DNA from: Faecalibacterium prausnitzii
GTDB lineage: Bacteria > Bacillota > Clostridia > Oscillospirales > Ruminococcaceae
DNA: 64,000 nt
Direction: 5' to 3'
Assembly (NCBI RefSeq): GCF_003324185.1
Contig: NZ_PXUP01000003.1
Location: forward strand, 1 to 64,000
Position numbers and translations under genes: made by a program. The notes beneath the pieces were generated by a model, which saw only the letters and a program-made list of their open reading frames with translations, was not told the origin of the DNA and made no database searches. Positions within the stretch are counted from its first letter, which is position 1. Every line of letters starts with the position of its first letter. Positions 15,946 through 23,137 of this stretch are shown piece by piece.

Positions 15946-15962
<17 letters not shown>
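15905..15962 (-). repeat. 58-bp direct repeat, copy 2, with tRNA-Ala terminator
   Basis: Identical to 15766-15823. On the minus strand it ends the functional tRNA and supplies its intrinsic terminator hairpin with a T-run. Confidence 0.85.
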
Positions 15963-16021
<59 letters not shown>

Positions 16022-17378: not shown

Positions 17379-18146
17379 TTATCCCCCGGTGTGGAACTGC
17401 TGCAACGCGCCTTTTTCCAGCCGGCTTACCTGCGCCTGACTGATGCCGATCTCCTGCGCCACCTCCATCTGGGTCTTGCCGCGCAGATACCGCAGCTCCA
17501 TGATGCGCTTTTCCCGGGGCGAAAGGGCGGCTACCGTATCGCGGAACTGCAACCCGCTGATCCAGCTCTCCTCGCTGTCCGGGTCCCGCACCTGGTCGAT
17601 CACATACATGGCATCGCCGCCGTCGGTGTACACCGGCTCGTCAAGGCTGAGCGGCTCCACCACCGACTCCAGCGCGGCGGTCACCTCGCGCCGGGCAAGC
17701 CCCGCTGCGGCGGCGATCTCGTCCATGGTGGGCTCGCGCCCCAGCTGCTTTTCCAGCGTTTCCCGCGCCTGCATGGCGCGGTAGGCGGTGTCCCGCAGGG
17801 TGCGGCTTACCCGCAGGGCGTTGTTGTCCCGCAGAAACCGCCGGATCTCCCCGATGATCATGGGCACGCCGTAGGTAGAAAACCGCACCGGCTGCGCGGG
17901 GTCAAAGTTGTCGATGGCCTTGATCAGCCCGATGCACCCCACCTGAAACAGATCGTCCAGATTTTCGCCCCGCTGGGCAAACCGCTGCACTACGCTGAGC
18001 ACCAGCCGCAGGTTGCCCTCCACCATCCGCGCCCGGGCAGCTTTGTCCCCGGCGTGGGCAAGGGTGAGCAGCTGCCGCTTTTCCGCCTCGGTCAGCACAG
18101 GCAGCTGCCCTGTGTTCACACCGCATAGCTCCACCTTGTTGTACAT
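17379..18146 (-). CDS. sigG: sporulation sigma factor SigG
   Basis: A 255-residue sigma-70 family factor matching SigG, the late forespore sigma. The N-terminal VELCGVNTGQLPVL is the SigG-specific lead-in; region 2 has NLRLVLSVVQRFAQRG and DDLFQVGCIGLIKAIDNFDP, and region 4 ends GKTQMEVAQEIGISQAQVSR. It is downstream of spoIIGA and sigE in the same order as in spore-formers. A terminator separates it from sigE, so it likely has its own promoter. Start ATG 18146. Confidence 0.93.
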   Translation of the reverse strand: MYNKVELCGVNTGQLPVLTEAEKRQLLTLAHAGDKAARARMVEGNLRLVLSVVQRFAQRGENLDDLFQVGCIGLIKAIDNFDPAQPVRFSTYGVPMIIGEIRRFLRDNNALRVSRTLRDTAYRAMQARETLEKQLGREPTMDEIAAAAGLARREVTAALESVVEPLSLDEPVYTDGGDAMYVIDQVRDPDSEESWISGLQFRDTVAALSPREKRIMELRYLRGKTQMEVAQEIGISQAQVSRLEKGALQQFHTGG

Positions 18147-18286: not shown

Positions 18287-18991
18287 CTATTCGCTTTCAA
18301 GGCGGGCTTTCAGGGTGCGGATGATGCGTTTTTCCAGCCGGGAGATGTAACTCTGGCTGATGCCAAGGGCATCGGCGGCTTCCTTCTGGGTGCGCTCCAC
18401 GCCGTCGGTAAGGCCGAAACGCAGTTCCATGATCTGCCGTTCCCGTGCCGAGAGTGCCGCTACGGCGCTGCGCAGCACCGCGCGCTCGGCGTCCTGCTCC
18501 AGCTGCTGGCTTACCGCGTTGGCGTCGCTGCCAAGAATGTCCGAGAGCAGCAGCTCGTTGCCGTCGCCGTCCACGTTCAAAGGCTCGTCGATGCTGGCCT
18601 CCTGCCGGCGGTTGGAGCTTTTGCGCAGGTACATCAGGATCTCGTTGCCGATGCAGCGGCTGGCGTAGGTGGCCAGCTTGATGCTGCGGGCAGGGGTGAA
18701 GGTGTTTACCGCCTTGATCAGCCCGATGGTGCCAATGCTTACCAAGTCCTCGGCGGGCACGCCGCTGTTTTCGTACTTTTTTGCCAGATACACCACCAGC
18801 CGCAGGTTGTGGGTGATCAGTTCCTCGCGGGCGGCAGCGTCCCCGGCAGCCATGCGGTCAAGCAGGGCTTTTTCCTGCTCGGGGGTAAGGGGCGGGGGCA
18901 GGCTTGGCCCGCCCGCCAGATAATGCACCGCGCCGCAGTAGCGCAAACGCCCCCACAGCCGCTGCCAGACCTTGCGGAAAAACTGCAACAT
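18287..18991 (-). CDS. sigE: pro-SigE, mother-cell sporulation sigma factor
   Basis: A 234-residue sigma factor matching SigE. The first about 24 residues form the amphipathic pro-sequence; [14 protein letters not shown] aligns with the B. subtilis processing region (VYYIGGSEALPPPL), so the SpoIIGA cleavage site near Tyr24 seems retained. Region 2 shows [16 protein letters not shown] and [18 protein letters not shown]; region 4 ends [16 protein letters not shown]. Its processing enzyme SpoIIGA is encoded upstream on the same strand, 225 bases away with repeats between. Confidence 0.94.
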
Positions 18992-19216: not shown

Positions 19217-20053
19217 CTACACCCCCACCTCCTCCGCCACGTCGTCCCCCAACAGCAGCGTCCATGCGCCGGTGGGGGCGTCCGGGGCGCAAAAGGCCGC
19301 CAGCAGGCCGGGCACGCGGCGCTGCCCACGGCACAGCGCGGCGGGCACGGCGGGCAGCAGGCAATGGCCGGTAACGGCGGCGCAGGGTACAAACTGCACC
19401 CTCAGCCCCGGAGGCGGGGCAGTGCCGGAGGCAAACCAGCTGTCTAAGTAGGCGCGCAGCGGTGCGGGCAGCCGGCTGCGCAACGGCGGGTACTGCACCA
19501 GCACCACCCGCCGCCCGGCAAGGGGGTCTTGCAGGGTAAAGCCGGTGTCGTGGTAGGCCTGTACCGGCACTGTTGCCCCCGCAATTTGCAGCACAGCGGC
19601 AAAGCAGCCCCGCTGCGGGCGGCCAAACACCGCCAGCAGCCCGCGCAACAGTCCGTACACCCCGGCGCAGCAGAGCAAAAGCTGCCCCGGGCGCACCGGT
19701 AAAAGCACGCTCAGGTTGTTGGCCTGTACCCCGGGCAGCACCACCGCGCCGCACAGCAGGCCGTTCAGCGCCGCATACCATCCGCACAGCCGGGCAAAGC
19801 TGCGCGCCCCGGCCACGCCGTAGCACACCGCCACCACCCCGCAGCAGCTGGCGATTTTATATAGTACCGCCAGCGGGGCGGGCCACGGAGGGGCCAGCAG
19901 GACAAGGGTGCTGACCGCAGCCGCCGCGCTGCCCGCGCACAGCCGCAGCCCGGTGCAGCTGCGCCCGCATAAAAGCCCCGCGCCCAGCAGCAGCGCGGCG
20001 GCTGCGGCAAAGTTTACCAGCAGCAATTCGTCCACAAAAACAACTGTTTTCAT
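19217..20053 (-). CDS. spoIIGA: SpoIIGA, membrane aspartic protease that activates pro-SigE
   Basis: A 278-residue protein with five hydrophobic helices in the first about 150 residues and a C-terminal protease domain. The catalytic motif HDTGFTLQDPLAG corresponds to the DTG active site of SpoIIGA; PVQAYHD before it and RVQFVPCAAV after it match the retroviral-protease-like fold. It is divergent enough that the name rests on domain layout, DTG motif and position directly upstream of sigE. High GC and alanine/leucine-rich composition. Start ATG 20053. Confidence 0.85.
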   Translation of the reverse strand: MKTVVFVDELLLVNFAAAAALLLGAGLLCGRSCTGLRLCAGSAAAAVSTLVLLAPPWPAPLAVLYKIASCCGVVAVCYGVAGARSFARLCGWYAALNGLLCGAVVLPGVQANNLSVLLPVRPGQLLLCCAGVYGLLRGLLAVFGRPQRGCFAAVLQIAGATVPVQAYHDTGFTLQDPLAGRRVVLVQYPPLRSRLPAPLRAYLDSWFASGTAPPPGLRVQFVPCAAVTGHCLLPAVPAALCRGQRRVPGLLAAFCAPDAPTGAWTLLLGDDVAEEVGV

Positions 20054-20204: not shown

Positions 20205-20233
20205 TTGAACATTTCTGGAAAGTGTGGTATATT
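20205..20233 (+). promoter_or_regulatory. SigA promoter of the MAM-family gene
   Basis: TTGAAC (20205-20210), a 17-base spacer and TATATT (20228-20233), preceded by TGG as an extended -10. The start of the MAM homologue is about 70 bases downstream of the predicted transcription start, leaving a short leader with a CCGG/CCGG hairpin. Confidence 0.7.
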
Positions 20234-20311
20234 ATTGCCATCCTAATAAGGATTGAGCCGGAAACACCGGTTCGAAAATATTTTTTCTATTTTTGAAGGG
20301 AGTAATTCATT

Positions 20312-20743
20312 ATGATGATGCCTGCAAATTTCTCTGCTGTGTCTGAGAACGAGATGACCTACGTTATGGGTGGTAGCATTGCTGACTACCTGGCACCCGC
20401 TATGGGCGCTGCTCAGTGGCAGAACTTCCACAAGAACCTGGTGACCATCGTTGGTAACAAGTACGTTCAGGGCTTCCTGGACAACACCGTCGGCGCTGTG
20501 TTCAGCGGCACCTGGACCCCCGGCGACGGCCTGACCGGCTTCGGCGGCCAGTTCAGCACCATTTGGAAGAAGAACTACACCGATAATGTGACCGATGAGT
20601 CCACTGGCGCTCAGAAGTTCGGCTACGGCGCTCTGGGCGTTGTGAACAGCATCCTGAACGTTGCTGGCAACCTGGCTGCTATCTACAACCTGGGCTTCGG
20701 CACCGCTAAGAACATCGTTGGCGAGGGCGTCTACAAAGCTTAA
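20312..20743 (+). CDS. MAM-family protein (microbial anti-inflammatory molecule) with double-glycine leader
   Basis: A 143-residue protein whose start, MMMPANFSAVSENEMTYVMG, closely matches the known opening of the Faecalibacterium anti-inflammatory protein MAM (MMMPANYS...MTYVNGG). Residues 13-21 (NEMTYVMGG) fit the double-glycine leader consensus (E-L/M-x-x-V-x-G-G), so a C39-type peptidase/ABC exporter would cut after Gly21 and release a cargo of about 122 residues, rich in Gly, Asn and Ala with two hydrophobic stretches. AAGGGAG precedes the first ATG. It is a single-gene unit with its own promoter and terminator. No C39 transporter is in the window. The family call is recognition from memory of MAM's N-terminus. 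Confidence 0.85.
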   Translation: MMMPANFSAVSENEMTYVMGGSIADYLAPAMGAAQWQNFHKNLVTIVGNKYVQGFLDNTVGAVFSGTWTPGDGLTGFGGQFSTIWKKNYTDNVTDESTGAQKFGYGALGVVNSILNVAGNLAAIYNLGFGTAKNIVGEGVYKA

Positions 20744-20818
20744 GTAATCAGCTTGACTGATAGGCTCATGCTTGCGTGACTGTACCCCTAGGGGTGCAGG
20801 GAACATACTAGCATAATA

Positions 20819-20858
20819 ACACCCCCGTAGGCTTATGCCTGCGGGGGTGTTTTTTTAT
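20819..20858 (+). terminator. terminator of the MAM-family gene
   Basis: ACACCCCCGTAGGC pairs with GCCTGCGGGGGTGT around TTAT, followed by TTTTTTAT. A second small palindrome, ACCCCTAGGGGT, lies at 20783-20796. Confidence 0.88.
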
Positions 20859-21208: not shown

Positions 21209-23137
21209 ATGAAAGATGGTTTTTTAAAGGCGGCTGCTTTTTCGCCCGCGCTGCGGGTGGCAGACTGCACCTATAATGCACAGCAGATTCTGACACAGCT
21301 GCAAACTGCCGCGCAGCGGGGGGTAAAGCTGGCGGTTTTCCCGGAGTTTTGCCTTACCGGCTACACCTGCGGCGATTTGTTTTTGCAGCGCACCTTGCAG
21401 CAGGGCGCACTGGATGCGCTGGAGTGGCTGCTTGCGCAGACCCGCGCACTGGACACCGTAGTGCTGGTTGGCTTGCCGCTGCTGGTGCACGGCAAGCTGT
21501 ACAACTGCGCTGCCGTGCTGTGCCGCGGGCAGCTGCTGGGCATTGTGCCCAAGACCTACCTGCCCAACTACGGCGAATTCTACGAAAAGCGGCAGTTCAC
21601 CCCCGGCAGCACCGAGGTGCAGACGGTGACCGTCTGCGGGCAGCAGGTGCCCTTTGGCACGTCGCTGCTGTTCCGCTGCCGCCAGATGCCCAGTTTTGTG
21701 CTGGGCGTAGAGCTGTGCGAGGACTTGTGGAGCGTCCTGCCGCCCTCCACCTTCCACGCACTGGCGGGCGCGACCGTCATTGCAAACCTTTCTGCCAGCG
21801 ATGAGACCGTGGGCAAGGCCGAGTACCGCCGCGCACTGGTGGCAAACCAGTCTGCCCGGCTGCTGTGCGGCTACCTGTACGCCTCGGCAGGGCACGGCGA
21901 AAGCACCACCGACATGGTGTTTGCCGGGCATGACCTCATCGCCGAGGACGGCAGCATCCTTGCCGAGACTGCGCCCTTTGCGGGCGACCACGCCGAGACC
22001 GAGCTGGACTGCCAGCGCATGGAGGCCGAGCGTGCTCGCAACACCAGCTTTGAGCACAGCGCCGAGGGCTACGTCACGGTGGAATTTGACCTTACACCGG
22101 AAGAAACGGTGCTCACCCGCCGCATCGACCCCGCGCCCTTTGTGCCCAGTGACCCGCAGCGCCGCGCCGCCCGCTGCGAGCTGATTTTGAAGATGCAGGC
22201 CGACGGCCTTGCCAAACGGCTGGAGCACGCCCACGCCAAAACGGCGGTCATTGGCATTTCCGGCGGCTTGGACAGCTGTCTTGCCCTGTTGGTGGCAGTG
22301 CGCGCCATGAAGCAGCTGCACCGCTCCGCCGCCGATGTGCTGGCGGTGACCATGCCCTGCTTTGGCACCACCAAGCGCACCCGCAGCAACGCCGAAATTT
22401 TGTGCGGGGAGCTGGGCGTAAGCTTTCAGGAAATTCGCATCGCCGACACTGTGCGCAGCCACTTTGCGGATATCGGGCAGGACGAGACTGTGCTGGATGT
22501 CACCTTTGAAAACGGGCAGGCACGGGTGCGCACGCTGGAGCTGATGGACCTTGCCAACCGCACCGGCGGCCTTGTGGTGGGCACGGGCGACCTTTCGGAG
22601 CTGGCGCTGGGCTGGGCGACCTACAACGGCGACCACATGAGCATGTACGGCGTGAATGCCGGTGTGCCCAAAACGCTGGTGCGCTATCTGGTGCAGTACG
22701 AAGCTGAGACTGCTGCCACCGCTGCTTTGCACGATGTGCTGCTGGATATTCTGGCCACCCCGGTGTCGCCGGAGCTGCTGCCCGCCAAGGACGGCGAAAT
22801 TGCACAGATTACCGAGGACTTGGTGGGCCCCTACGAGCTGCACGATTTTTATCTGTATTATGTGCTGCGCTGCGGTTTTGGCCCGGCAAAGATCTACCGG
22901 CTGGCAAAGGTGGCCTTTGCAGGCAGGGCAGAGTACACGGATGCCGTGCTGTACAAGTGGCTGCGCAACTTCTACTGGCGCTTTTTTGCTCAGCAGTTCA
23001 AGCGCAGCTGCCTGCCGGACGGCCCCAAGGTGGGCAGCGTGACCCTTTCGCCCCGGGGCGACTGGCGGATGCCCAGCGACGCCTGTGCCACCCTTTGGCT
23101 GGCAGAGCTGGAGCAGCTCAAACCCGGGGAGCAGTAA
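21209..23137 (+). CDS. nadE: glutamine-dependent NAD+ synthetase
   Basis: A 642-residue two-domain enzyme making NAD+ from nicotinate adenine dinucleotide with glutamine as nitrogen donor. The N-terminal nitrilase-type glutaminase (about 1-270) has the triad regions FPEFCLTGY (Glu), KTYLPNYGEFYEKR (Lys) and GVELCEDLW (Cys). The C-terminal synthetase (about 300-640) has the PP-loop GISGGLDSCLALLVA and GTGDLSELALGWATYNGDHM. Length is normal for the fused form. It heads an operon with the next two genes (3- and 16-base gaps). The nearest AGGA is about 15 bases before the ATG, a weak ribosome site. Confidence 0.96.
   Translation: MKDGFLKAAAFSPALRVADCTYNAQQILTQLQTAAQRGVKLAVFPEFCLTGYTCGDLFLQRTLQQGALDALEWLLAQTRALDTVVLVGLPLLVHGKLYNCAAVLCRGQLLGIVPKTYLPNYGEFYEKRQFTPGSTEVQTVTVCGQQVPFGTSLLFRCRQMPSFVLGVELCEDLWSVLPPSTFHALAGATVIANLSASDETVGKAEYRRALVANQSARLLCGYLYASAGHGESTTDMVFAGHDLIAEDGSILAETAPFAGDHAETELDCQRMEAERARNTSFEHSAEGYVTVEFDLTPEETVLTRRIDPAPFVPSDPQRRAARCELILKMQADGLAKRLEHAHAKTAVIGISGGLDSCLALLVAVRAMKQLHRSAADVLAVTMPCFGTTKRTRSNAEILCGELGVSFQEIRIADTVRSHFADIGQDETVLDVTFENGQARVRTLELMDLANRTGGLVVGTGDLSELALGWATYNGDHMSMYGVNAGVPKTLVRYLVQYEAETAATAALHDVLLDILATPVSPELLPAKDGEIAQITEDLVGPYELHDFYLYYVLRCGFGPAKIYRLAKVAFAGRAEYTDAVLYKWLRNFYWRFFAQQFKRSCLPDGPKVGSVTLSPRGDWRMPSDACATLWLAELEQLKPGEQ

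Follow-up and report, generated by a model that had tools for sequence, protein, structure and literature searches.

A MAM gene of Faecalibacterium prausnitzii as a probable client of a C39-ABC exporter with several leader-bearing cargoes

One transporter may serve several substrates that share a leader, as is the case for the prochlorosins and for the substrates of ComAB/BlpAB, all of them short bacteriocins, pheromones or lanthipeptides. MAM (Microbial Anti-inflammatory Molecule) comes from Faecalibacterium, one of the major commensals of the human gut, and is considered a candidate anti-inflammatory protein. Its gene lies near a sporulation cluster in all genomes examined by Auger et al. 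2022 (PMC8836110), who located the PCAT gene beside mam in three strains and at other sites in several more, described a conserved Gly-Gly at positions 20-21 and suggested that MAM is exported by PCAT. Rodrigues et al. 2025 (PMC12184118) found the first 21 residues to be missing from the MAM peptides of the supernatant, ranked MAM first in abundance among the envelope proteins, observed immunogold labelling at the surface, and modelled a hexamer and a surface lattice. In the same paper the supernatant peptides, which increase in stationary phase, were interpreted as lysis products, and an uncut leader peptide was detected once, in one spectrum. A search with the strict motif MMMPANx(8,11)VxGG placed 95.33% of its matches in Faecalibacterium, the MAM-PCAT relation was called specific to this genus, and PCAT substrates were ascribed a pattern of a hydrophobic residue at -12, Glu at -8, Leu or Met at -7, Val at -4 and Gly-Gly (PMC12184118). 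Both the envelope location and the inhibition of NF-kB by MAM were published for strains other than the one studied here.

The double-glycine leader, the hypothesis of a C39-ABC exporter and the site beside the sporulation genes are already published in these two papers. A word search of the main text of PMC12184118 gave no mention of paralogs, other substrates or accessory proteins, and in the open literature searched we found no report of a multi-cargo exporter, of leader and cassette outside Faecalibacterium, or of the fold of the accessory protein. What seems new is an extended leader shared by many cargoes, with one exporter gene per genome.

The mam gene and its surroundings

The window, i.e. 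the whole stretch of 64,000 nucleotides analysed here, contains a gene that, judged by homology, encodes a true Faecalibacterium MAM and is an additional member of this known family (Table 1). A first-pass annotation had described the protein as opening like MAM; the similarity was found to continue beyond the leader and to run over the whole protein, with 94% identity to the closest named relative (Faecalibacterium sp. I4-1-79; query residues 1-141), while further named Faecalibacterium loci align with 68% over residues 1-141 and 49% over residues 1-130. A scan of named genomes gave 20 loci, all with Faecalibacterium in their titles; 19 of these (L077-L095) were taken as MAM loci, and the remaining one (L096) matched in the leader only. 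MAM homologues are possessed by 26 of 31 Faecalibacterium genomes (E 0.001). The F. duncaniae MAM peptide of PMC12184118 was recognised in locus L029 and is carried by the MAM of genome G003, which has six leader ORFs besides MAM, and clustering on the cargo alone places the window protein and the F. duncaniae MAM in one group. No NCBIfam model matched the window protein up to E 1, and the Pfam search returned only a sub-threshold hit to Kelch_6 (E 0.071).

The double-glycine leader suggested at first pass is real, being matched by the leader profile and carrying conserved columns as well as Gly20-Gly21. It agrees with the strict published motif (MMMPAN, 11 residues, V18, M19, G20-G21) and with the PCAT substrate pattern (V10 at -12, E14 at -8, M15 at -7, V18 at -4, G20 and G21). 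The early estimate of the cargo size, about 122 residues, was also correct. The AlphaFold2 model of MAM is helical but weak (mean pLDDT 58), in agreement with the published three-helix description, and because the model was too weak we ran no fold search with it.

Promoter, gene and terminator are all confirmed, in line with the earlier description of a self-contained unit. The promoter is of the sigma-70 type; its scan gave four promoter-like matches in 3 kb (shuffled mean 0.7), three of which are overlapping readings of one site, and both hexamers are invariant in an alignment of the window with its four closest named loci, L077-L080 (five sequences). Seven terminator-like matches came from the terminator scan (3.7 on average after shuffling), and the one listed in Table 1 has the longest stem. 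A hairpin in the mam mRNA leader (20253-20275; z-score -2.4 for the whole mRNA leader) was dropped as a conserved element, since this stretch is not retained in L079 and L080. As also proposed at first pass, the gene sits beside sporulation genes rather than a transporter: spoIIGA, sigE and sigG lie upstream on the minus strand and likewise adjoin mam in L077-L080, and the window has no C39 gene. The label of an orphan was given up, as mam belongs to a known family and keeps a conserved site, and the exporter cassette is present elsewhere in the genome. The single tRNA gene of the window is a tRNA-Ala (15946-16021).

Table 1. Coordinates of mam, its parts and its neighbours in the window
Feature	Position	Strand	Basis
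sigG	17379-18146	-	NF006071, E 3.5e-113, over cut-off
sigE	18287-18991	-	NF006158, E 1.5e-100, just below cut-off (335.6 of 339 bits)
spoIIGA, divergent neighbour	19217-20053	-	TIGR02854, E 6.6e-12, below cut-off; synteny
mam promoter, TTGAAC-17-TATATT, TG before second hexamer	20205-20233	+	Promoter scan
Ribosome binding site, GAAGGGAG	20295-20302	+	Invariant in window and L077-L080
mam, 143-aa MAM precursor	20312-20743	+	ORF call, ATG 20312 to stop; homologues
Leader, 21 residues, ending Gly20-Gly21	20312-20374	+	Leader profile; column conservation
Cargo, 122 residues, mostly helical in a low-confidence model	20375-20740	+	Cargo cluster; AlphaFold2
Intrinsic terminator, 15-pair stem followed by T's	20818-20851	+	Terminator scan
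nadE (NAD+ synthase), downstream neighbour	21209-23137	+	NF002730, E 1.4e-263

Exporter, leader and cargoes within Faecalibacterium

An exporter acting in trans had been supposed from the leader, and a listing of C39-ABC genes in the window's genome yields a single one, hence the sole candidate, on contig C44 (L036, 9301-11637). Its product scores 578 bits against TIGR01193 (cut-off 524) and combines PF03412, PF00664 and PF00005, all over cut-off, in one chain, i.e. the C39, ABC membrane and ATPase domains. It has Gln8, Cys14 and His92, the active-site residues named in PMC12184118, and the Asp that F. duncaniae has at position 136 corresponds to D139 in an unaligned reading of this exporter. 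The cassette continues with genes for a 151-aa protein, an HlyD-like protein and an Ig-like (Big_2) protein, in this order. One such exporter gene, matched as two neighbouring pieces, is present in each of 26 of the 31 genus genomes; it is absent in G018, G019, G025 and G026, and the only C39 frame of G020 is a different one, of 293 aa. No second PCAT of the leader-linked kind was found in any of the 31 genomes searched. In G028, a one-contig genome, the open frame that holds the exporter's C39 pieces is no longer than 203 aa (G028:C1:1947568). In Faecalibacterium some 30 inserted residues, lysine-rich in the window's genome, split the C39 match, which is unsplit in the five leader-linked exporters outside the genus.

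The 151-aa accessory protein has no PDB match by sequence profile and no match in Pfam or NCBIfam. Its AlphaFold2 model (mean pLDDT 73.8, 15 sequences) resembles folds of the GyrI/BmrR/Rob/SOUL type in the PDB (best E 6.1e-4, TM-scores about 0.5), and from this predicted fold we would guess at cytosolic binding of a peptide or ligand, as a chaperone or an immunity factor.

Six leader genes were identified in the window's genome with a leader profile (E <= 1.9e-12; next match 0.39); the profile was built from those same six leaders, and the independent test lies in the remaining genomes. Besides mam, five further genes on contigs C5, C35 and C76 carry the leader, and they encode four cargo types other than MAM. 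Over the genus the profile matches 149 ORFs in 27 of the 31 genomes, the six of the window's genome included, which is a lower bound since the shortened-leader MAMs of G002 and G013 were missed; about 0.3 false matches are expected over the 31 genomes at E 0.01. Start codons and cut sites were assigned by script rules, and two leaders without the usual Gly-Gly (G015:C8:299699 and G021:C16:11682) were given ad hoc cut sites and still counted. A DNA pattern for the core EMTYxxGG matches 26 of 31 genus genomes and the reversed pattern none of them. Pro stands at a fixed distance from the Gly-Gly in 143 of the 149 leaders, and among the alignable ones Glu occupies one site in 98% and Tyr another in 87%. 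Exporter-bearing genomes have 2 to 8 leader genes, with a median of 6.

Natural variants of the MAM leader were also observed. One MAM of L087 (10001-10339; G021:C16:11682) has lost its Gly-Gly, MMMPANYSVIAENEMTYV being directly followed by LMTASNW, and a second MAM-like gene with a normal leader lies beside it; if the draft assembly is right, this locus would be a built-in test of the need for Gly-Gly. In F. longum and its relatives the MAM leader is shortened and ends in VVYGG without the usual EMTY spacing (L093 73-462 and 3352-3771; G002:C1:1937478; G013:C4:63128).

The cargoes fall into 11 groups with 50, 35, 26, 13, 11, 5, 3, 3, 1, 1 and 1 members and are 49-135 residues long. For the eight groups with at least three members, hhalign found no homology in any of the 28 profile comparisons (top probability 1.7%), and relatedness among these groups was rejected. 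MAM constitutes group 1, which includes a second MAM-like gene (MTFPAN...) and occurs in 24 genomes plus G002 and G013; groups 0 and 2 are found in 26 genomes each. Groups 0-6 are hydrophobic on average, in contrast to groups 7 and 8. For the six leader proteins of the window's genome, Pfam yielded no family over the cut-off, bacteriocin models included. Leader genes of groups 2 and 4 form a close pair (e.g. G000:C35:192494-193058 and homologues), group 2 being present in all 11 genomes with group 4, and genes of group 0 lie in close tandem (e.g. G000:C76:62422-62925).

Linkage, co-occurrence and spread beyond the genus

Leader and exporter are both present in 26 of the 31 genus genomes and both missing in 4 (Fisher p 1.6e-4, uncorrected for kinship). 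The one genome with a leader only, G025, is a 77% complete draft with two leader genes and no C39 gene.

In most MAM-bearing genomes of the genus (18/26) mam and the exporter gene lie within 3 kb, and in the other 8 they lie on separate contigs or no less than 68 kb from each other. A row of PCAT, one or two MAM genes, the 151-aa protein, HlyD and the Ig-like protein is found in 15 of the 19 named MAM loci (with a MAM on either side of PCAT in L091 and L093). Eleven of these 15 have the full spoIIGA-sigE-sigG set beside the cassette on the opposite strand, and in the other 4 the contig ends first. L077-L080 show no PCAT within their 10-kb flanks. Seven of the eight unlinked genomes are represented in an exporter tree, where they form one branch (100/99); the five other genus exporters in the tree all come from mam-linked genomes, and leader genes are likewise near the exporter outside the genus. 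Because the unlinked exporters make up one branch and linkage also occurs outside the genus, the simplest account would be one derived move of the cassette. That PCAT may lie elsewhere than mam was published before, while the single branch of unlinked exporters comes from the present tree.

To follow the system outside Faecalibacterium we used a family sample of 396 genomes, 7 from the genus and 389 outside. The leader (E <= 1e-4) was detected in 11 of them, namely six of the genus and five others (5/389). A C39 match is present in 100 of the 396, including all 11 with a leader, and the 151-aa protein (E up to 1.1e-64) occurs in the same 11 genomes. Weak extra matches to this protein were seen in G128, a fragment at a contig start, and in G227 and G257, whose weak accessory relatives were not counted as a system. 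Outside the genus, each of the five genomes with a leader (G086, G209, G273, G321 and G396; G086 is 85% complete with 6% contamination) has its leader genes within 5 kb of a PCAT gene, with relatives of the 151-aa, HlyD and Ig-like proteins beside it. In an order sample of 284 genomes the 151-aa protein was found in three, one of them outside the family (G600), where a PCAT, a leader ORF with EMTYVDGG and the start of an HlyD gene stand alongside. The confinement of the leader to Faecalibacterium, published for a stricter motif, is therefore rejected for the extended leader. Two DNA-pattern matches were discarded, in G350 for its missing leader context and one of three in G273 as a lipoprotein-like ORF; the leader profile found neither, and the reversed control pattern gave one match in the 396 family genomes (G225).

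The exporter tree comprises 45 sequences, i.e. 12 of the 26 genus exporters, the full set of five leader-linked exporters from outside the genus, and 28 leader-negative ones hand-picked from the C39 list, mainly full-length frames. One branch (100/100) separates the 17 leader-associated exporters from the 28 others, a result that comes with a long-branch warning; many leader-negative sequences are also unevenly trimmed at the N-terminus, with part of C39 missing. The second exporters of G209 and G396 fall among the non-leader ones. An exporter outside the leader clade was also observed near the weak accessory-protein relative of G257 (L349, G257:C7:880000-899000), where a short ORF carries a double-glycine leader of a different type (ELSEDEKNEVDGG); judging by these parts, L349 is perhaps a distant cousin of the cassette.

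Export of MAM and comparison with known systems

Taken as a whole, the explanation we consider probable is that MAM is one client of a multi-cargo C39-ABC exporter guided by the leader. MAM would be made with a 21-residue leader that docks in the C39 peptidase domain of the C44 exporter, the precursor would be cut after Gly-Gly (Gly21), and the helical cargo of 122 residues would be pumped out with the help of the cassette's HlyD-like adaptor and end up in the envelope, where MAM has been reported in F. duncaniae. The same exporter would be common to the five other leader genes of the window's genome with their four other cargo types. In most genomes of the genus mam lies inside the cassette by spoIIGA-sigE-sigG; in the window's lineage the cassette is elsewhere, and mam would have stayed. 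This explanation draws on the computed homology, leader sharing, single exporter gene per genome, co-occurrence, synteny and exporter clade. Leader recognition, the cut after Gly21 and export would follow by analogy with known PCAT biology, the envelope location in the window's strain would follow from the published F. duncaniae work, and any function ascribed to the cargoes is putative.

Several observations stand against a multi-cargo exporter. G025 has two leader genes without a C39 gene, G028 has kept five leader genes with a C39 frame of 203 aa, the MAM of L087 is without Gly-Gly and those of G002 and G013 have shortened leaders, and PMC12184118 offers both the lysis interpretation and one uncut leader peptide. 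If the leader were no export signal, MAM and its companions would be intracellular and reach the medium by lysis, which is how the rise of supernatant peptides in stationary phase was taken in that paper. We regard this as very improbable, however, since the same paper reports envelope enrichment, surface immunogold labelling and the missing first 21 residues, and since leader and exporter are present or absent together in the genus and leader and accessory protein share the same 11 of 396 genomes. It is unlikely, too, that the exporter is in effect dedicated to MAM, with the other leader proteins carrying decaying paralogous leaders or not being its cargo. Such dedication would suit the 18 of 26 genomes in which mam is the sole leader gene within 3 kb of the exporter, the position of the other leader genes of the window's genome on C5, C35 and C76, and the wording of PMC12184118, which terms the MAM-PCAT relation specific. 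However, groups 0 and 2 are as widespread as MAM (26 genomes each) and their leaders keep the same columns, which decay does not explain; moreover, no genome has a second PCAT of the same kind, and outside the genus the exporter clade and the leader occur without MAM.

A bacteriocin arsenal would leave the export route unchanged, the cargoes including MAM being antibacterial and the GyrI/SOUL-like protein or another factor providing immunity. The exporter is over the cut-off for TIGR01193, a peptide cleavage/export family, cargo groups 0-6 are hydrophobic on average, and the matched fold includes some antibiotic-binding or immunity proteins, with CtaZ and the albicidin resistance protein among the structures matched. 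We nevertheless think such an arsenal improbable, as a protein of 122 residues that is the dominant published envelope protein is ill-suited to be a bacteriocin, and as bacteriocin models are matched neither by the six leader proteins in Pfam nor by MAM in NCBIfam. Beyond the multi-cargo exporter itself, we tentatively raise the possibility that the conserved four-gene cassette (a PCAT of a distinct clade, a helper of GyrI/SOUL fold, HlyD and an Ig-like protein) may deliver unrelated tagged proteins that build or decorate the surface, with MAM as the most abundant one, and that other genera and at least one other family of the order may use it for cargoes of their own.

Should the exporter also handle about five further proteins in each genome, its mutants are not readable as MAM mutants, and if the explanation is true, several members of the Faecalibacterium surface proteome are unstudied. 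The common leader makes the question of export directly testable, and it offers a simple means of searching other gut bacteria for proteins of this kind.

Compared with published MAM (PMC8836110, PMC12184118), the window gene has the same full-length homology, strict leader motif, sporulation-side site and PCAT in the genome, and differs in sequence only; the available text of these papers treats MAM as a PCAT substrate and describes no other leader-bearing cargoes. The predicted fold of the 151-aa protein is that of GyrI-like, BmrR C-terminal and SOUL proteins, but it has no detectable sequence similarity to solved structures and is tied to an export cassette. With its PDB relatives among the PCAT/AMS exporters, such as PCAT1 with CtA and the streptococcal ComA, the exporter shares the C39, transmembrane and ATPase parts in one chain as well as the double-glycine leaders of its putative substrates. 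It differs from PCAT1 and ComA in its separate clade and, in Faecalibacterium, its insert of about 30 residues in C39, and the cassette differs in its companion of GyrI/SOUL fold, its Ig-like protein and its cargoes of 49-135 residues. Unlike the substrates of the prochlorosin and ComAB/BlpAB systems, the putative Faecalibacterium cargoes are larger, and one of them is a dominant envelope protein.
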